This document shows, piece by piece, positions 2,816 through 18,022 of a stretch of 42,328 nt of DNA. The position numbers were made by a program, and so were the translations under genes. The notes beneath the pieces are model-generated. The model did not search any database, was not told where the DNA came from, and saw only the letters and a program-made list of their open reading frames with translations. The stretch covers positions 1-42,328 of IMG/VR virus record IMGVR_UViG_3300006033_000047; one strand, 5' to 3'. Numbering within the stretch: position 1 is the stretch's first letter; each line of letters begins with the position of its first letter. The stretch comes from a virus.

Positions 2816-4822
2816 TCACCCCAGGACGATAATTTCGGTCTTTTTGCCGGTCTTGCCCTTCCGCTCGACGAGCGAAATGGGTGCTCCGCACACCTCGATG
2901 GCCTCCTCGAACAGCTCCGAAATGCGCCGCCGGATGGTCCGTTCCTCGCCCTGCACCTCCGGGAACTGGCCCGGGGCGGAAGCAATGGTCTTGGACAGCT
3001 CGTAGACCGACATCTCGGACTCGCCGCAGGAGATCATCACGTCGTAGACCGCCTGGGCCAGGGACATCTCCTCGGAATCGCACTCCCCGATCATGGACAG
3101 GTCGGCCACCTCCAGGGCGCCGATGCTGTCCCCGCTTTCGATCTGGACAGATACGCGCTTGAACCACCTCGCCTTGTCGGCCGGCGGGGCCAGGTTGGCC
3201 TTGGCGTCGTCCACGCGCACGAACCACTTTCGCAGCGTGTCGGTAATGCCCATCTTCTTGGCCTCCTTCGGCCCGAGGCCGCCCATGGTGTGGGCGATGC
3301 GCGCCGCCGAGATGACGCTCGACGCCCCGCGGGCCGTGTTCGCATCGCCGTTTCGCTCGTCCGCCGCTTTCGGCTTGTTGGTATGATGGGCCAGCGAGAC
3401 GGAAGCGCCCGTCCTGGCGGCGATTTCCGACATGATCTGCATGAGCTTGTCCATCGCCATGTTGTCGTTCTCGTTTGCCCGGTGGAACCGGACGAGCGGG
3501 TCGAAGATGACGCGCACGAACCCGTTGTCCTTGATGTGGGAGATGGTGTCTTCGATGCGTTTGCGGTTGATCTGGAGGCCCTTGCCGTTGTCGGCCAGGA
3601 AGGCAACGTCCTTGCCGTAGCCGGATGTCACATGGAGGTCGGCGAGGTCGGACATGGGTATGCCGTGGTGCTTGGCCACTGCCACGAGCCGGCGGTCCAG
3701 TTCGTCGTCCGGGTCCTCGCCGTTTATGAACCAGACCGGGCCCTGCTTGTGGACCGTGTCGCCGGTGAGTTCCTGGCCGGTGACGATGGCCATGGCCTCG
3801 GTCAGCAGGAACGTGGATTTCGACATGCCTCCTGGGGCGATGAGCACGTCGCAGAAGCCGGCGATGCACCGGGTGCCGAGCACCCATTCACGGCGTTTGA
3901 TGTCGTGGACGCACACCGAGCTGGCGGGCCTGGACATGGGTGCCTTGGGCTTGTGATGCTCCGGCAGGGTTTCTTCCGGGGCGTCGTCGGGGAACATGGC
4001 CTCGGCCGTCGCGTTGCCGAACGACCCCTGGGCTGATCGGTAGCTCGACCGGATGGTGGCCACCATCTCGGAAATTGGGAACCCGTTTGTGTCAACGATC
4101 TTCGGGTACCAGAGTTGGGACAGAAGGCTCACCGCCATCTCGACCGACAACCCGTGGTCCCTGGCCCGCATCGCCATGTGCATGGCTGTGATGTTGCGGT
4201 TTTCCTCGACGGGCTCCGCATCTGCCAGCCATGCGACGAACGACGCGACGTTGTGCGCCAGGTCCGTGTCGCCGACGGGGATTGGATTTTCGATTTCGGA
4301 TTTCGGCTTCGGGGCGCCTACCACCCTCGGAAGCCATTCAGGGGCCTGGGCCACGGGAATGGGATTGACAACCTCGTAGTGGCCGTTGACGCCGTCCTCG
4401 CGGACAACGGAGCCGGGGATGACGACGTAGCCGCCTTCGCCGCGGGTATCGAGGCCGGCCCCGAGCCTCTGGACCGAGTTCTGAATGGAGCCCTGGTAGT
4501 AGATGTGCAGGCCGCCGGATGGGGTCGCCACCCGGAACGTGCTTGGGAGCCCGTTCTCCATGTCCAGGGCCATGAGGGCGTCGGTTGCCTCCGGGTGCTT
4601 GCCGGAGTCAACATCCAGGATGGCGAGCCCGGACTTGCCGCAGTCCAGGCCGAAGTTGCAACCTGGGAGGCCCTGCGCCCAGGCGCGAATCTGTTGTTCG
4701 CTGTTAGAGGATTTCTCGCGCCACTTGAAGTCCTTGGGAGGTTTCTTCGAGCGTGGGCGAAGCGGAAAGACAAACCACCCCCGCCGCGCATAGTTGAGCG
4801 CACAGTCCAACGCCGCAGTCAT
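2816..4822 (-). CDS. Bifunctional primase-polymerase/RepA-like helicase, 668 aa
   Basis: Replication initiator and primase-helicase. Residues 1-170 form a bifunctional primase/polymerase (prim-pol) domain with catalytic Asp70-Val-Asp72 and His106 in SGGLHIYY. A linker follows, then a RepA-like hexameric helicase of the AAA_25 type. Its P-loop is APGGMSKST (329-337), where Ser replaces the usual Gly before Lys. Then come the NGED motif (367-370), Walker B VRVIFD (436-441) and AHHTNK (478-483). A winged-helix-like C-terminus follows. AGGGGG lies just before the ATG. The gene lies 8 bp downstream of the Cro-like gene and faces the iteron array at its 3-prime side. Confidence 0.88.
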   Translation of the reverse strand: MTAALDCALNYARRGWFVFPLRPRSKKPPKDFKWREKSSNSEQQIRAWAQGLPGCNFGLDCGKSGLAILDVDSGKHPEATDALMALDMENGLPSTFRVATPSGGLHIYYQGSIQNSVQRLGAGLDTRGEGGYVVIPGSVVREDGVNGHYEVVNPIPVAQAPEWLPRVVGAPKPKSEIENPIPVGDTDLAHNVASFVAWLADAEPVEENRNITAMHMAMRARDHGLSVEMAVSLLSQLWYPKIVDTNGFPISEMVATIRSSYRSAQGSFGNATAEAMFPDDAPEETLPEHHKPKAPMSRPASSVCVHDIKRREWVLGTRCIAGFCDVLIAPGGMSKSTFLLTEAMAIVTGQELTGDTVHKQGPVWFINGEDPDDELDRRLVAVAKHHGIPMSDLADLHVTSGYGKDVAFLADNGKGLQINRKRIEDTISHIKDNGFVRVIFDPLVRFHRANENDNMAMDKLMQIMSEIAARTGASVSLAHHTNKPKAADERNGDANTARGASSVISAARIAHTMGGLGPKEAKKMGITDTLRKWFVRVDDAKANLAPPADKARWFKRVSVQIESGDSIGALEVADLSMIGECDSEEMSLAQAVYDVMISCGESEMSVYELSKTIASAPGQFPEVQGEERTIRRRISELFEEAIEVCGAPISLVERKGKTGKKTEIIVLG

Positions 4823-7308: not shown

Positions 7309-7806
7309 ATGCAGCAAAGACGTTCGTGCCTTGAGTGCGGGGCCGAATTTACCGCGCTACCTAGCAGTCCAAAAAAGTTTTGTTCTTTTGTTTGCCATAC
7401 AAATTACCGCAAAAAACTTTTTGAGGAAAAGAAGGGAAATGAACTCTTAACGTGCGAGGTATGTGGCGAAAAATACTACGTTATACCGTACCGAAGAGAT
7501 AAGTCAAAATACTGTTCGTATAAATGCCATCAAATTGGCGAGGGCCGGAAAGCCGGGGCCCTCGCCGCCGAAAGGCAGCGAAGAAAATCCGAAGGAAAGA
7601 CCTATACGAAGACAAATGGTCGTCACACGCACAGAAGTGCTGCGGAAGAACTAATAGGCCGCCAGTTATCCAAAGGCGAAGTGGTTCACCACATTGATGG
7701 GAATAAGCTGAATAACAACCCCGACAACCTACTGGTGTTGACTCATGCCGAACATGCAAGGTTGCACATGAGAAAAAGATGGGAGAACAAGAAAAAAGCG
7801 GGTTGA
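7309..7806 (+). CDS. HNH homing-type endonuclease, 165 aa
   Basis: Two N-terminal zinc-ribbon units (CLEC...CSFVC and CEVC...CSYKC) are followed by a basic linker and an HNH_3-type nuclease core: VHHIDGNKLNNNPDNLLVL, then HAEHARLH. It probably cuts DNA lacking the element, as free-standing phage homing endonucleases do. Its last 28 nt overlap the start of the SNF2 helicase gene. The DNA is less G+C-rich than its neighbours, consistent with a mobile gene. Confidence 0.82.
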   Translation: MQQRRSCLECGAEFTALPSSPKKFCSFVCHTNYRKKLFEEKKGNELLTCEVCGEKYYVIPYRRDKSKYCSYKCHQIGEGRKAGALAAERQRRKSEGKTYTKTNGRHTHRSAAEELIGRQLSKGEVVHHIDGNKLNNNPDNLLVLTHAEHARLHMRKRWENKKKAG

Positions 7807-12834: not shown

Positions 12835-13050
12835 ATGAAATTCATAATCGGAATTATCACAACTATTTGCATCGTTATCGTGTTCTGGCACATCGCATGG
12901 TTCTGTGTTGTCAACCTGGCCGAGCACATGGCCCGGCTCCACCGGCTCCCGCTGGAGTCCACCTACCTGTTGGCCCAGGTCATCGTGTTTGGCATCATCG
13001 GCGTGTTGGGCCTGTGCGTGTTGGCGTACCTCGGGAGGTCGAAGGGATGA
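12835..13050 (+). CDS. Two-segment membrane protein, 71 aa
   Basis: Two hydrophobic segments: FIIGIITTICIVIVFWHIAW near the N-terminus and LAQVIVFGIIGVLGLCVLAY near the C-terminus, with a short basic tail. AAAGGAGG precedes the ATG; its TGA overlaps the polymerase ATG. Function unknown; a superinfection-exclusion role is possible but unsupported. Confidence 0.65.
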   Translation: MKFIIGIITTICIVIVFWHIAWFCVVNLAEHMARLHRLPLESTYLLAQVIVFGIIGVLGLCVLAYLGRSKG

Positions 13051-16000
13051 AGCTCACAATCGACTTTGAAACCCGGTCCTGCATCAACCTGAAGGACTGC
13101 GGCGAGTGGGTCTACTCCGAGGACCCGACCACGGACATCATGTGCCTGGCGGTGAAGGAAGACGAAAAACCGGGGCGGATTTGGGTGAACCCGAAACTGG
13201 CTTTTGCCGCCGCGCACCACCTTGAGGTGGAGTCCAACGCCGGATGGGATTTGGCAGACGAACTCCCCCTGATAACCCTCGACGAAATCACCGATTTAAT
13301 CCAAAAAGCTGAACAAATAGAGGCACATAATGCGTCCTTCGAGCGCGCCATGTGGCAGAACTGTTTCTCCCGCAAATACGGCGTCCCCATGCTGCCCCTG
13401 GACAAGCTCCGCTGCTCCCTGGCCAAGGCGTCGTACCACTCGCTCCCCCGCGGCCTGGGTGAACTCTGCAAAGTCCTGGGCGTGGAGGTCCAGAAGGACG
13501 ACGTTGGCGCCGCGATCATGCGGAAGATGTGCCGGCCCAAGAAGCTGGTGCGGGCCGAGTGGAAGCCCTTCGAGGATCAATACTCCATCCCGTGGAAAGA
13601 CCTGAAGGAAATGCAGGCTTCCCTCTACGAAACCATTGCTTACGGGTGGCACCACGCCGAGGATTGGGAATGGCGCAACGTCATGGATGCGGACGCGCTC
13701 ATTCATTGGCACGAGGACCCCGACGACATCCTGGCCCTGTGTCGGTACTGCCTCCAGGACGTGGAAGCGGAGCACGCGGCGTCCAAGGCCCTGGCCGACC
13801 TACCGGCCCGCGAACTGCGGGTCTGGCAAATGGATCAGGAAATCAACGCCCGAGGACTCAACACAGACACGGAACTCGCTCACAAGATGGTCGCCATGGT
13901 CGAGCAGCACACCGCGGACCTGTTGGACGACCTGGCCACGATCACCAACGGCGAGGTGCAAAGCCCCCGCCAAACCGCCAAGTTCAAAGCGCACGTCAAC
14001 AAATCCCTGCCCGACGACCTCCAGCTCGCCGACGTGAAAGCGTCGTCCGTGCTGGCGGCCCTGAAGGACCCCCGCGTCCAGGGCGAGGCCCGGCGCCTGC
14101 TGGAAATTCGCCGGTCCCTGGCCCTGTCCAGCGTGGCCAAGTACGAAGCGATCCTCAACCGCGCGTCGATGGATGGACGGGTTCGTGGGTCCATCCTGTA
14201 CCACGGGGCGGGCACGGGGCGGTTCTCGGGCCGGGGCATCCAGCCCCACAACTTCCCCCGCGGGAAGTTCAAGGACCCGGAGCCGGCCATCGAAATGGTG
14301 CTGATGGACGATGTCGAGGGCGTGAAGGCGTATTGGGGCGACCCCATGGCCGTGGCCTCCACTTGCCTGCGCGGCGTCCTGACGCCCGGGGAGGGCAAAG
14401 AGTTCACCTGCGCGGACTTCTCCAACATCGAGGGCCGTGGCGTGGCATGGCTGGCGGGCGAGGAGTGGAAGGTCGAGTCCTTCCGGGCCTACGACAAGGG
14501 GGAGGGCGAGGACAACTACAAGCTGGCCTACAGCCGGGCCTTCAACATCCCAGTCGAATCCGTGACGAGCGACAACCGGCAGATCGGCAAGGTCATGGAG
14601 CTTGCGTGCCTGGCCGGTGACACCCCGGTATTGACGGATACTGGGTGGAAGCCGTTGGTATTGATAACAAAAACTGACCGCGTGTGGGACGGAGTCGAGT
14701 TTGTAGCCCACGGCGGGATCGCTGGACGAGGGGTAAAAGAATGTGTACGGCTCTTGGGTATTGAGGTAACACCAGACCACCTTTTCCTCATGGGGGACGT
14801 GTGGGTAACGGAGGACAAATGGGCAACTGCGGAAGATTTGAAAGAAGAACCCCGTCTCCTGCAATCGGCGCTCGATACGGCGAGCTTGTCGTCATTGCCA
14901 TCATGCGCGGAAAAATGGGCGGATGCAGAGGCATTCAGTGCAGGTGTTCTTGTGGCCGGGAAATTGTGGTGGCCGAGTCGAATCTTCGAAAAGGAGCGAC
15001 TTCCCGGTGTTCAACTTGCGGACGAGCAAAGGCAGCAGAAACCAGGACCAGGTACGGGGACATTCCACCAGGGATTCGAAGACGCCTCAATGGCAGAATC
15101 TCCAGTATCTACGGGAGATGCCTTGACGAAAACCACCGGCAGTTTCCGCAGTACGGGGGGCGGGGTATCACCGTGTTCAAACCATGGGTTGAAGACCGAC
15201 ATGCGTTCCTCCGATACCTTGCCTCTCTCCCTGGGTGCACCGACCCACAGCTTACCATCGACAGAATCAACAACAACCAAGGGTATGAACCGGGAAATCT
15301 GCGCTTCGTGTCCATCCAACGTCAGCAACACAACCGAACGAACACCAACTGGGTTGAATACCAAGGACGACGAATGTCTGGAACCGAGTTCTGGAAACAA
15401 CATTGCCCCGGGTACGCCCGGGTCGGAACCGTCCTTCGAAAGATACGGGAAGGGCGTACCCCAGAGGAGATCATCGAAGAGCAGGCCAGATGCAAGGGCC
15501 CGTATGGTGTACGATCTGGTAAATTGCGGGCCGCGTAATCGTTTCATGGTGCTCACGGAGCGCGGACCCCTGATCGTCCACAACTGCGGGTACCAGGGCG
15601 GCGTCGGGGCCTTCCAATCCATGGCCGCGGTCTACGGAGTCAAGGTGCCTGACGACCAGGCGGCCGAGCTGGTGAAGCTGTGGCGCCAGGCCCACCCCAT
15701 GGTGGTCGCCCTGTGGTACTCGCTGGAGGAGGCCGCGCTCATGGCCGTGGCGCACCCGGGCAAAGCCTACAGCTACCGGGCCATCGCGTACAAGCTGTCC
15801 CAGGACGGCCGCTTCCTGCTCTGCCGGCTCCCGTCGGGCCGGCTCCTCCATTACCCGTTCCCAGCCCTGGAAGAGGCCGAGATGCCTTGGGGCGAAACCA
15901 AGCGCGTCGTCACCTACATGGCCACCGATTCGCAGACTGGAAAGTTTGTAAAATCAAAGGGTTATGGTGGCCTCTTTACAGAAAACTGCGTCCAGGCATT

Positions 16001-16214
16001 GTCCAGGGATGTGATGGTCGAGGGCATGTTCCGGGTCGAGGAACATGGGTACCCTGTGGTCCTGACGGTCCACGACGAAGTGCTCTCCGAGCATCCGGTT
16101 GGCCATGGATCGGTTGAGGAGTTCGGCCACCTGTTGTCGGTCGTGCCCTCGTGGGCGGATGGTCTGCCCGTCGCCGCCGCTGGTTGGCGAGGAACCCGGT
16201 ATCGCAAAGGGTGA
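13047..16214 (+). CDS. DNA polymerase I family polymerase with intein, 1055 aa precursor
   Basis: The replicative family A polymerase. The N-terminus has a DEDD 3-5 exonuclease (DFETRS at residues 6-11; AHNASFE). Polymerase motif A is CADFSNIEGR (about 454-463), motif B is split by the intein (RQIGKVMELA joined to CGYQGGVGAF), and motif C is VHDE (1008-1011). Residues 521-846 are the intein, leaving about 729 aa after splicing, a normal size for phage PolA. The ATG overlaps the stop of the membrane-protein gene. Without splicing, the O-helix is broken, so the precursor should be inactive. Confidence 0.93.
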   Translation: MKLTIDFETRSCINLKDCGEWVYSEDPTTDIMCLAVKEDEKPGRIWVNPKLAFAAAHHLEVESNAGWDLADELPLITLDEITDLIQKAEQIEAHNASFERAMWQNCFSRKYGVPMLPLDKLRCSLAKASYHSLPRGLGELCKVLGVEVQKDDVGAAIMRKMCRPKKLVRAEWKPFEDQYSIPWKDLKEMQASLYETIAYGWHHAEDWEWRNVMDADALIHWHEDPDDILALCRYCLQDVEAEHAASKALADLPARELRVWQMDQEINARGLNTDTELAHKMVAMVEQHTADLLDDLATITNGEVQSPRQTAKFKAHVNKSLPDDLQLADVKASSVLAALKDPRVQGEARRLLEIRRSLALSSVAKYEAILNRASMDGRVRGSILYHGAGTGRFSGRGIQPHNFPRGKFKDPEPAIEMVLMDDVEGVKAYWGDPMAVASTCLRGVLTPGEGKEFTCADFSNIEGRGVAWLAGEEWKVESFRAYDKGEGEDNYKLAYSRAFNIPVESVTSDNRQIGKVMELACLAGDTPVLTDTGWKPLVLITKTDRVWDGVEFVAHGGIAGRGVKECVRLLGIEVTPDHLFLMGDVWVTEDKWATAEDLKEEPRLLQSALDTASLSSLPSCAEKWADAEAFSAGVLVAGKLWWPSRIFEKERLPGVQLADEQRQQKPGPGTGTFHQGFEDASMAESPVSTGDALTKTTGSFRSTGGGVSPCSNHGLKTDMRSSDTLPLSLGAPTHSLPSTESTTTKGMNREICASCPSNVSNTTERTPTGLNTKDDECLEPSSGNNIAPGTPGSEPSFERYGKGVPQRRSSKSRPDARARMVYDLVNCGPRNRFMVLTERGPLIVHNCGYQGGVGAFQSMAAVYGVKVPDDQAAELVKLWRQAHPMVVALWYSLEEAALMAVAHPGKAYSYRAIAYKLSQDGRFLLCRLPSGRLLHYPFPALEEAEMPWGETKRVVTYMATDSQTGKFVKSKGYGGLFTENCVQALSRDVMVEGMFRVEEHGYPVVLTVHDEVLSEHPVGHGSVEEFGHLLSVVPSWADGLPVAAAGWRGTRYRKG
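14607..15584 (+). other. Intein inside polymerase motif B, 326 aa
   Basis: A self-splicing element read in the polymerase frame. Block A: Cys1 in CLAGDTPVLTDTGWK. Block B: GIEVTPDHLFLM. Blocks F and G: VYDLVNCGPRNRFMVL and GPLIVHN, then Cys+1. These N- and C-terminal Hint parts account for about 90 and 30 residues. The middle 210 residues have no family likeness, are rich in Ser/Thr/Pro, and are simply the out-of-frame translation of a homing endonuclease gene (14819-15538). Insertion is after ELA and before CGYQGG. Confidence 0.9.
14819..15538 (+). CDS. HNH homing endonuclease nested out of frame in the intein, 239 aa
   Basis: Overlaps the intein in a different frame (start position 2 mod 3 against 0 for the polymerase). 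A zinc-ribbon region CRCSCG...CSTCG is followed by a linker, YGGRGITVFKPW, and the HNH-like core LTIDRINNNQGYEPGNLRFV with RQQHNRTNTN. The same architecture occurs in the free-standing gene at 16905. GGAGGA lies just before the ATG, 4 nt away, so independent translation is plausible; a GTG at 14801 is an alternative start. It starts inside the N-terminal Hint part and ends inside the C-terminal part. Confidence 0.85.
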   Translation: MGNCGRFERRTPSPAIGARYGELVVIAIMRGKMGGCRGIQCRCSCGREIVVAESNLRKGATSRCSTCGRAKAAETRTRYGDIPPGIRRRLNGRISSIYGRCLDENHRQFPQYGGRGITVFKPWVEDRHAFLRYLASLPGCTDPQLTIDRINNNQGYEPGNLRFVSIQRQQHNRTNTNWVEYQGRRMSGTEFWKQHCPGYARVGTVLRKIREGRTPEEIIEEQARCKGPYGVRSGKLRAA

Positions 16215-16217
16215 AAC

Positions 16218-16421
16218 ATGAGCAAATACCCGGCTTGCTTTGGCGTCCGCAGGACGCCGGAATCCATCGAGAAGAACTTGTGCGCGGCCTGCAACTTCGA
16301 AGACTACTGCGGCTACGTCCTCGCCGCCGGCCGCGTCGTGGCCGAGAAGGAGAAGGAAATCATGCGACTCCAAACCCAGGTCGCGGAACTCAAAACGCGG
16401 TTGAGGTTGCGGTACAAGTGA
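16218..16421 (+). CDS. Small Cys-containing coiled-coil protein, 67 aa
   Basis: N-terminal CFGVRR...CAACNFEDYC could bind a metal; the C-terminal half (EKEKEIMRLQTQVAELKTRL) is a probable coiled coil. It begins 3 nt after the polymerase stop; its TGA overlaps the GTG of the next gene. No family recognised. Confidence 0.65.
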   Translation: MSKYPACFGVRRTPESIEKNLCAACNFEDYCGYVLAAGRVVAEKEKEIMRLQTQVAELKTRLRLRYK

Positions 16422-16633
16422 CGACAAGGGACCTCATCAACACCTTGAAGCAGGGCAAGCCGGTATCCAACCGGCTCGTGAAGGAAATCATCCAGCACCT
16501 CGAACTCGTGGAGCAGTTGAGCGCGAGCGTTGCCTACCACGTAGAGTTGCTGGCGGCCCAAGGAGAACATGGATGCGATGCCAAGGACAGGTCTTCGACA
16601 AGGCCACCAAGGAATGGAAACGATGTTCCATGA
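16418..16633 (+). CDS. Hypothetical protein, 71 aa
   Basis: GTG start overlapping the previous stop (GTGA). The first 50 residues (TTRDLINTLKQGKPVSNRLVKEIIQHLELVEQL) look helical and protein-like, while the last 20 overlap the next gene in another frame and look random. No family recognised. Confidence 0.5.
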   Translation: MTTRDLINTLKQGKPVSNRLVKEIIQHLELVEQLSASVAYHVELLAAQGEHGCDAKDRSSTRPPRNGNDVP

Positions 16634-16908
16634 ACGCAACGCGCGAGTACCCTGACGGGACGCGGTTTTGCAAGTTCCACGACCCCTACGAGGTGTACGA
16701 GCGGCGTGTGAAAAGAGCCCGGGCCTACGACATGGCCCGGGCCAAGCAGGACGCGGCCGCCCAGGCTGAATTCGAGCGCAAGATGCGCGGGCACCCCTGG
16801 TTCAAGGAGCTTCGGACGCTGGTGGAATCGGCCCAAGTGCACGGCGTGTTCCCGGAGTGGGAGGAACGAGCCAGAAAGATATTACTGGAAACAGGAGGAA
16901 ACCTATGA
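16573..16908 (+). CDS. Hypothetical zinc-motif protein, 111 aa
   Basis: The N-terminus has CQGQ...CSMNATR...CKFHDPYE, a likely Cys-Cys-Cys-His zinc site common in small phage proteins, followed by a helical basic region. AAGGAG lies 8 nt before the ATG. Function unknown. Its TGA overlaps the start of the HNH gene. Confidence 0.65.
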   Translation: MRCQGQVFDKATKEWKRCSMNATREYPDGTRFCKFHDPYEVYERRVKRARAYDMARAKQDAAAQAEFERKMRGHPWFKELRTLVESAQVHGVFPEWEERARKILLETGGNL

Positions 16909-17507
16909 ACGTCGCCCATATCAAAGATTTGGACATGCGTGCATATGCTGGGCGGGCTAGGAGATTTGCCTTGTATAGGTGCCTGAACTGTGGACGGGAA
17001 TTCGAGCACTGCACGTCAAACGTAGCAATACTGAAAAGCTGCGGGTGTGCAAAAAATAAAAAGCCGTTGAAACATGGAGACGCGAAAAAGAAAAATCCTT
17101 CCGAGCATCGTAAAATTTACGCTGTATTCAGGAGTATGCACCAGCGATGTTCAAACCCGAAAAGCACCAGGTTTTCGCGGTACGGCGGGCGGGGAGTGCG
17201 CGTTTGCCCCGCTTGGTCCGATTACCAGGTCTTCAAATCTTGGGCGTTGAGCAATGGGTACGCCCAAGAGTTGCAAATTGACCGTATAGACAACGACGGC
17301 TGGTACAGCCCAGAAAATTGTAGGTGGGTTACAAAGAGGGAAAACCTAGCAAACAGGAACCTGTCCGCCGTAGGTGAACACTGTAGAAAACTTGACAAGG
17401 AGAAAGTGAAACGGATTAGACGCGAAGAAAATGTGCAATTGCTGGCGGAGGAATTCGGGGTTAGCGAAAGCCTTATCTACAAAGTTAAACGGGGAGAGAG
17501 GTGGTAA
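16905..17507 (+). CDS. Free-standing HNH homing endonuclease, 200 aa
   Basis: Same family as the endonuclease nested in the intein: an N-terminal zinc ribbon (CLNCGREFEHCTSN...CGCAKN), YGGRGVRVCPAW, then LQIDRIDNDGWYSPENCRWV with ENLANRN. A C-terminal helix-turn-helix-like tail (VQLLAEEFGVSESLIYKV) may help DNA recognition. ACAGGAGG precedes the ATG at 16905. It separates the zinc-motif gene from the ThyX-like gene and is less G+C-rich than both, as expected of a mobile insertion. Confidence 0.85.
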   Translation: MNVAHIKDLDMRAYAGRARRFALYRCLNCGREFEHCTSNVAILKSCGCAKNKKPLKHGDAKKKNPSEHRKIYAVFRSMHQRCSNPKSTRFSRYGGRGVRVCPAWSDYQVFKSWALSNGYAQELQIDRIDNDGWYSPENCRWVTKRENLANRNLSAVGEHCRKLDKEKVKRIRREENVQLLAEEFGVSESLIYKVKRGERW

Positions 17508-17509
17508 CG

Positions 17510-18022
17510 ATGAATGTGACAGTGCAGAAATTGACAGGAACCGGCCTAGCGCAGAAGGCGTGCAAGTTTACGCTGCACAGCCATGCCGATACGGAAATAA
17601 CCCTGGACAGGCTGTACCGGGCGGAGCACAGCCCGATCCGCACGCAACTCTTCTGGGTAGAAATGCTAGGAATTCCGAACTTCGTCTCTGTCCACTTTGT
17701 CCGCCATAAAGTAGGCGTTGAACATTGGGCGCAGACCATGCGGACGGACAGGGGCGCCGAGGAGATTGCGAACCGGCTGACGCCGACGAACCACGCCATG
17801 CTCGTCAACGCTCAGGCGCTCGTCAACATGGGCCGCAAGCGCCTTTGCCACAAGGCCAGCCAGGAAACCCGGGAGGTCATGGTCCTGATCCGCAAGGCGA
17901 TGTGCACGGTTGACCCGGCGCTTACCCGGTTCCTGGTCCCCGAGTGCGTCTACCGGGGCGGCGTCTGCCACGAACTCAAACCATGCGGCCAAATGGAGGG
18001 CATCGTATGGAGTCGGTCCTGA
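17510..18022 (+). CDS. ThyX-like protein, 170 aa
   Basis: Resembles FAD-dependent thymidylate synthase (ThyX): LYRAEHSPIRTQLFWVEMLG, then VRHKVGVEHWAQTMR in place of RHRxxSxNxxSxR, then NAQALVNMGRKRLCHKASQETREV matching the NxxxL...RL...AQxEIR helix. The RHR motif is altered to RHK and lacks the usual Ser, so the reaction or substrate may differ. It is shorter than typical ThyX (over 200 aa). ATG at 17510 has GAGAGGTGG upstream. An alternative GTG start lies 9 nt earlier. Confidence 0.6.
   Translation: MNVTVQKLTGTGLAQKACKFTLHSHADTEITLDRLYRAEHSPIRTQLFWVEMLGIPNFVSVHFVRHKVGVEHWAQTMRTDRGAEEIANRLTPTNHAMLVNAQALVNMGRKRLCHKASQETREVMVLIRKAMCTVDPALTRFLVPECVYRGGVCHELKPCGQMEGIVWSRS

Follow-up and report, generated by a model that had tools for sequence, protein, structure and literature searches.

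Results

The polA locus and its nested gene

The window, meaning the whole 42,328-nucleotide stretch of DNA that was analysed, is a single metagenomic record and contains a polA gene encoding a family-A DNA polymerase. Profile searches matched its product to PF00476 (E=1.7e-9) and PHROG 17 (E=4e-95), and a tblastn search with the polymerase gave matches in 1614 phage records. The gene is one continuous open reading frame (ORF) with no internal stop and is not broken into separate ORFs as in a fractured gene. Within motif B (the O-helix) of the polymerase, at the joint GKVMELA/CGYQGG, the frame is interrupted by a candidate intein whose boundaries read as GKVMELA/CLAGDT...LIVHN/CGYQGG (slashes mark the joints). 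These boundaries were called from alignments of 10 to 50 relatives, and the splicing residues were compared over 97 representatives. All of the features assigned by the sequence-only reading to the polymerase frame were present, namely a Cys1 codon at 14607-14609, TPDH in block B, VYDLVN...HN ending at 15584 and a Cys+1 codon at 15585-15587. The element thus carries the residues expected of an intein: a nucleophile at position 1, TxxH, a terminal His-Asn and Cys, Ser or Thr at +1. Across the representatives, Cys1 and TxxH were found in 97/97, the terminal Asn in 95/97 and a +1 Cys/Ser in 95/97. The coordinates of all features are listed in Table 1.

Table 1. Features of the polA region of the window and the evidence on which each was called
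Feature	Coordinates	Strand	Evidence
polA, family-A DNA polymerase with 3'-5' exonuclease domain, extein host	13047..16214	+	PF00476, PHROG 17, tblastn
Putative intein, 326 aa, polymerase frame, Cys1 to His-Asn	14607..15584	+	Hint motifs, relatives' alignment, AF2, Foldseek
Hint-N, intein residues 1-94	14607..14888	+	pLDDT; profile matches to PDB inteins
Hint-C, intein residues 292-326, VYDLVNCGPRNRF...IVHN	15480..15584	+	pLDDT over residues 301-326; alignment
GGAGGA, Shine-Dalgarno-like site of nested HNH gene	14810..14815	+	sequence; SD counts in relatives
HNH endonuclease gene nested in the intein, 239 aa, in frame +2 with respect to polA	14819..15538	+	PHROG 374; alignment; AF2
5' zone read in both frames: HNH N-terminus over Hint-N end	14819..14888	+	constrained-frame change in relatives
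Zone in which only the HNH reading is constrained	14889..15479	+	substitution phases, stop avoidance, low pLDDT
3' zone read in both frames: HNH C-terminus over Hint-C start	15480..15538	+	lowest substitution rate in relatives
Second HNH gene, free-standing, directly after polA; distant paralogue of the nested one	16905..17507	+	similarity to nested HNH

Profile and structural comparisons indicated that the Hint-N and Hint-C parts would form a Hint fold. A Hint-N profile matched the solved inteins NEQ068 (E=2.7e-5) and PI-MtuI (E=0.002). In an AlphaFold model of the intein, pLDDT was mostly 96 to 98 at residues 1-94 and from about residue 300 to 326 (96 to 97 over residues 301-326 of Hint-C) and fell to about 35 to 55 in the middle. 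The top Foldseek matches to this model were inteins and hedgehog Hint domains (best E=3.8e-3, probability 1.0). The polymerase reading of the region between the Hint parts is probably a disordered, open linker, as judged from this model.

Canonical inteins carry the endonuclease domain in the same polypeptide and frame as the Hint domain, forming one mobile unit. A homing endonuclease likewise accompanies the Hint domain in the window, but it is in another frame. The nested ORF is intact, as the sequence-only reading had described it, with its own GGAGGA and ATG. Its predicted product has an N-terminal zinc ribbon (CxCG...CxxC) followed by YGGRGI and IDRINNNQGYEPGN; YGGRGI and LTIDRINNNQGYEPGN both lie within this ORF. 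The product matched the HNH endonuclease family PHROG 374 (E=6.7e-38) and PHROG 3377 (E=1.5e-27), and its AF2 model had a mean pLDDT of 88. A Pfam search of the window gave no match for the HNH family. Catalytic activity is attributed to the nested protein through its family assignment, because no histidine was invariant in the HNH-set alignments and a Foldseek search with the model gave no confident PDB match. In a single-sequence search of IMG/VR, no close relatives of this HNH protein were found, and alignments were needed. The window as a record also lacks close relatives, and none with an intein-free polA was found. Two other HNH-like genes were observed in the window. The free-standing gene downstream of polA is 35% identical to the nested HNH over 142 aa (E=9e-13), and an ORF at 7309-7806 (+ strand) has CxxC fingers and belongs to the classical HHIDGN type.

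Recurrence in phage and bacterial genomes

The tblastn search detected phages with an intein at the identical or a neighbouring polymerase site. Hint-N and Hint-C were in the polymerase frame and the HNH in frame +2 in Pseudomonas phage MR14, EBPR siphovirus 2, Vibrio 97.13, Salmonella SETP3 and Ent1 (both Guernseyvirinae), Escherichia fPoEco01, Sodalis SO-1 and Shigella EP23 (both Dhillonvirus). The HNH was in frame +1 in APSE-1, Caulobacter RW, Shewanella SFCi1 and Streptococcus Javan113. Three scans of IMG/VR followed by profile classification yielded 167 ORFs with a Hint-N...Hint-C arrangement, some from overlapping loci, and the HNH was out of frame in every one (132 in +2 and 35 in +1). 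As matches had been ranked over the whole intein, which biased this classification, the scan was repeated with Hint-N alone. The repeat detected 73 distinct inteins, comprising 64 intact forms with the HNH out of frame (42 in +2, 22 in +1), 4 mini-inteins of 134 to 180 aa, 5 with a broken host frame and no intact in-frame form. A Hint-N profile scan of bacterial and prophage genomes contributed another 13 intact composites, each with its HNH out of frame (12 in +1, 1 in +2), together with 1 broken form and 3 mini-inteins; these inteins came from Bacillota, Acidobacteria, Verrucomicrobia, Pseudomonadota and others.

Altogether, about 170 distinct related inteins were found in IMG/VR and in phage and bacterial genomes, about 160 of them with the HNH out of frame. 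The sequence-only reading had pointed to relatives with the endonuclease in the Hint frame as evidence that would tell against overprinting; within intact genes there were none (0 of about 160). As the scans rest on a Hint-N motif of about WDGxEWV, the absence of intact in-frame forms applies to this intein family and not to all phage inteins. The wide occurrence of the arrangement, in two phases and with at least two origins (see below), had not been foreseen by the sequence-only reading.

The two phases differed in location. The +2 elements were found in motif B of PolA (GKV/C, GKVA/C, GKVxELA/C), while the +1 elements mainly adjoined motif C (YGGK/C, YGGKL/C, VEN/C). This link is not absolute, since +1 elements of the bacterial set were also detected at GKVxELA/C. 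Several polymerases hold both kinds of element; in L050, L102, L028, L246, L220 and L279 there are two overprinted inteins per polymerase, with the +2 element at motif B and the +1 element near motif C. An HNH in frame +1 was also found in helicases. The intein/HNH architecture was observed in SNF2-like and DEAH-like helicases (L224, L328, L340, L341 and L349), identified by our reading of their sequence motifs, and the helicase of L349 appears to contain a second intein-like insert. The SETP3-type intein was present in 163 isolate phage records of the collection, and the overlapping HNH was unannotated in nearly all of those listed.

Translation signals of the nested gene

The start of the nested gene has the context GGAGG-ACAA-ATG, with 4 nt separating GGAGG and ATG, and an alternative GTG start is present at 14801. 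Among 99 representatives, a Shine-Dalgarno-like sequence of at least 5 nt preceded an ATG or GTG in the HNH frame in 40, as compared to 6 in the third frame. In many +2 elements an ATG at nt 92 is supplied by the conserved Glu-Trp codons of Hint-N; the window does not have this ATG and has a GGAGG/ATG at nt 212 instead. The HNH stop codon, TAA, was made from the conserved His-Asn codons at the end of the intein in 19/99. These signals suggest that the HNH would be translated from an internal start.

Selection on the two reading frames

According to the sequence-only reading, the polymerase frame would remain open across the HNH gene by chance only about 4 times in 100,000. For a single locus this was too strong. 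Synonymous shuffling, with the HNH protein and its codon usage held fixed, gave 1.8 expected stops for the window and a probability of an open frame of about 0.10. On the window alone, the open frame could thus be a side effect of the G+C content and of the codons used by the HNH, with the polymerase made in two pieces as in fractured genes with split inteins. Fractured relatives do exist, such as L310 with its ATGA overlap. The family-wide counts argue against this explanation, the departure from chance being overwhelming. No stops were observed in the polymerase frame of 97 representatives (HNH clustered at 70% identity and chosen as open) against 373 expected from the shuffles, while the third frame showed no depletion (1162 observed, 1131 expected). 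As this set was selected for being open, the fair comparison is the 64 open versus 5 broken forms of the Hint-N scan, for which the mean shuffled chance of an open frame was about 5% (+2) and 0.4% (+1). An open alternative frame was detected in only 1/89 free-standing HNH relatives but in 159/166 of the HNHs enclosed by Hint parts. Furthermore, deletions that remove the HNH preserve the Hint frame, and the HNH tail extends to the final Hint-C codon in 19/99, so that Hint-C would have hardly any space for a start of its own after the HNH. A fortuitously open frame with a two-piece polymerase is therefore very unlikely.

The positions of substitutions were analyzed in 35 independent pairs. In the Hint parts and exteins, changes were mostly at position 3 of the polymerase codon (48 to 63% in Hint). 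In the overlap, 1628 of 2759 changes (59%) in +2 elements were at polymerase codon position 2, and 478/829 (58%) in +1 elements were at position 1. These excesses correspond to the wobble position of the HNH, indicating that the overlap varies in the HNH frame. Relatives show a switch of the constrained frame about 200 nt past the start of the intein and a switch back 60 to 75 nt before its end. Substitution rates were minimal at these two joints (0.07 to 0.14), and the overall lowest rate of 0.07 was located 57 to 78 nt ahead of the end of the intein; such minima are expected if both proteins are under constraint there. Across the middle of the intein, the polymerase reading thus seems to be constrained mainly to be free of stops, and these patterns indicate selection keeping both the Hint and the HNH readings functional, in agreement with the proposal of the sequence-only reading that the intein keeps one frame while the endonuclease overprints it.

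A further alternative is that the insert is never spliced and the host protein simply tolerates it, as in the ShiLan domain, a published out-of-frame HNH in a phage gene whose host frame is likewise open (Arsenault, Gosselin, Gogarten 2025, Genes 16:178, PMC11855218). The ShiLan domain resembles the window element in being a homing insertion in a phage gene with its HNH in another frame, an open host frame and a homing-like distribution, and it ends in TAAC, the same ending as in the 19/99 inteins whose HNH stop is made from the His-Asn codons. It differs in having no intein splicing domain, an HNH of a different type, no recognisable ribosome-binding site and a methylase as host. The Hint profiles used here found no Hint around ShiLan, and ShiLan was therefore rejected as a degenerate member of the family. 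In the window, a functional-looking Hint encloses the HNH gene, both Hint-N and Hint-C are conserved, and the insertion is in the O-helix, where at least 200 unspliced residues would very likely abolish polymerase activity. Tolerance of an unspliced insert is, hence, even less probable than a two-piece polymerase.

A frame error was also considered, in which the HNH is truly in frame with the Hint parts and was shifted by an assembly indel in what is, after all, one metagenomic record. An indel of this kind has a precedent in the family. The intein of phage SS3e (NC_006940.2, 26034-26932; L085), in which the HNH is in frame 0 with Hint-N, was examined as a candidate in-frame form and rejected, as a 2-nt indel relative to SETP3 breaks the polymerase and splits its annotation; this indel is probably a sequencing error. 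For the window, such an error is hardly credible. Among isolates and contigs, about 160 distinct relatives showed the same two phases with the host frame intact, and 163 isolate records carry the SETP3-type intein; the HNH's own stop falls inside the intein; and a codon-position signal is present in both frames.

Equally implausible is a group I intron carrying an HNH gene. Free HNH genes are common in introns and the Sodalis phage SO-1 record labels the same arrangement a 'type I self-splicing intron', but this reading was rejected as an Rfam search of 13900-17600 gave no intron match at E<=1, the host frame stays open across the whole insert, where it specifies conserved Hint-N and Hint-C parts that carry the splicing residues, and synonymous variation in the Hint parts tracks the protein frame. 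The evidence points to SO-1 gp38/gp39 (NC_013600.1, L011) also being an intein with a nested HNH rather than an intron.

Mobility, origins and decay

The site occupied in SETP3 is empty of intein in the PolA of skrot, a close relative, and of SS5 and K1H, the skrot junction being GKA/CELGLGY. SETP3 and skrot are identical 400 to 800 nt upstream of the site and 85 to 91% identical in the adjacent 300 nt. Between SETP3 and fPoEco01, which belong to different genera, the intein is 97% identical, and upstream identity is about 70% at a distance of 900 nt and climbs to 91% where the intein is inserted. The presence/absence pattern and the gradients in the flanks indicate a fit to homing with co-conversion of flanking DNA.

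In a tree of HNH sequences, 24 of 26 +1 sequences formed one supported clade, nested among free-standing HNHs. The +2 sequences formed another clade, in which two divergent +1 sequences (Javan113 type) were placed beside one +2 sequence. As the +1 and +2 HNHs fall in separate clades, nesting would have arisen at least twice; the tree is consistent with at least two, and probably three, acquisitions or changes of phase. The Hint tree, based on 104 columns, was poorly resolved.

The sequence-only reading had suggested that the overprinted state could be a step between a mini-intein and a fractured gene. Fractured relatives do exist (L310, L313, L331, L333, L252, L278 and L024), and in this respect the suggestion stands. 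In L310 (around 3876-3963) the HNH stop overlaps the Hint-C start as ATGA, which suggests translational coupling of the two. A GIY-YIG-like gene, read by eye, replaces the HNH in the fractured inteins of L331 (from 3001) and L024 (from 1105). The mini-intein end of the suggestion did not hold for two clear shortened inteins. The mini-intein of L346 (685-1089) and the shortened intein of Javan422 have kept the HNH start and lost 522 and 423 nt, respectively, both multiples of three. They are deletion derivatives of composites, and the direction in these cases was from composite to mini-intein and not the reverse. The mini or shortened inteins that retain the HNH start and derive from composites by deletion were located at L346 685-1089 and L015 2501-3004. 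The overprinted state is itself the common, stable and mobile form, accounting for 64/73 of the inteins in the Hint-N-only scan.

Discussion

The window very probably contains a composite mobile element, in which a Hint intein in the host frame encloses an entire HNH homing endonuclease gene that lies in another frame and would be translated on its own. An HNH gene would have inserted between Hint-N and Hint-C in a frame other than that of the host. As its own stop codon bars such a gene from the host frame, the survivors would be out-of-frame insertions whose host reading is free of stops. Ribosomes translating polA would pass through the HNH gene, reading it as an unstructured linker of roughly 200 residues, and Hint-N and Hint-C would then fold together, excise themselves and rejoin motif B of the polymerase. 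The endonuclease may be made from the internal Shine-Dalgarno/ATG on the polA mRNA and would cut intein-free alleles, leading to spread of the whole element. Selection on such a composite would explain why the HNH is kept, why the host frame is free of stops and why both frames are constrained where the HNH overlaps the Hint parts.

Parts of this architecture have been recorded in other phages. The Salmonella phages Ent1, Ent2 and Ent3 and other SETP3-like phages encode an 'intein-containing DNA polymerase precursor'; the intein in their polymerase gene is homologous to that of the window and inserted only a few codons away from its site. The Ent1 record mentions only 'splicing domains', and the overlapping HNH (247 aa) is unannotated in Ent1, SETP3, fPoEco01 and JD01. 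For Hamiltonella phage APSE-1 and Sodalis phage SO-1, the gene lists already include an out-of-frame HNH nested in the polymerase gene (P46 in P45 and gp39 in gp38, respectively), but these records do not describe an intein with an overprinted endonuclease. Fractured genes and split inteins with free-standing endonucleases, said to have been described by Dassa et al. in 2009 (NAR 37:2560), are similar in having a free endonuclease gene between the Hint-N and Hint-C halves. Their host gene is broken into two ORFs, whereas that of the window is one continuous ORF; some relatives in the present family are fractured.

The full-text literature, the 2025 actinophage-intein preprint excepted, yielded only the ShiLan paper and none on inteins with an overprinted endonuclease. 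The ShiLan paper (PMC11855218) cites Gosselin et al. 2025 (10.1101/2025.01.02.630785) and Gorbalenya 1998, 'Non-canonical inteins', with reference to overlapping frames in actinophages, and the former (bioRxiv 10.1101/2025.01.02.630785) deals, at least in part, with actinophage inteins of 'non-canonical architecture'. As both are cited for overlapping frames, these sources may contain an earlier notice of the overprinted architecture. Out-of-frame HNHs were known already (ShiLan, APSE-1 P46 and SO-1 gp39); for the intein class with an overprinted endonuclease, no published recognition was found in the literature covered.

It is likely that the window element belongs to a large and hitherto unrecognised class of phage inteins, present in both polymerases and helicases, which arose by at least two insertions of free HNH genes in different phases, is held by selection on both frames and feeds mini-inteins through deletion and fractured genes through stops. 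An endonuclease may be fused to its intein or encoded as a free gene within a fractured host gene; overprinting would add a third mode of carriage. Since splicing would remove the product of the other frame, an essential polymerase could survive the entry of a free-standing HNH gene into its intein. Strong, asymmetric selection in overlapping frames is replicated many times over in the family, and its single-coding and double-coding zones are defined. How inteins originate and decay becomes directly testable, since the family includes overprinted, mini and fractured forms, some of them at shared sites. These findings also mean that many phage polymerase annotations miss a gene, the overlapping HNH.
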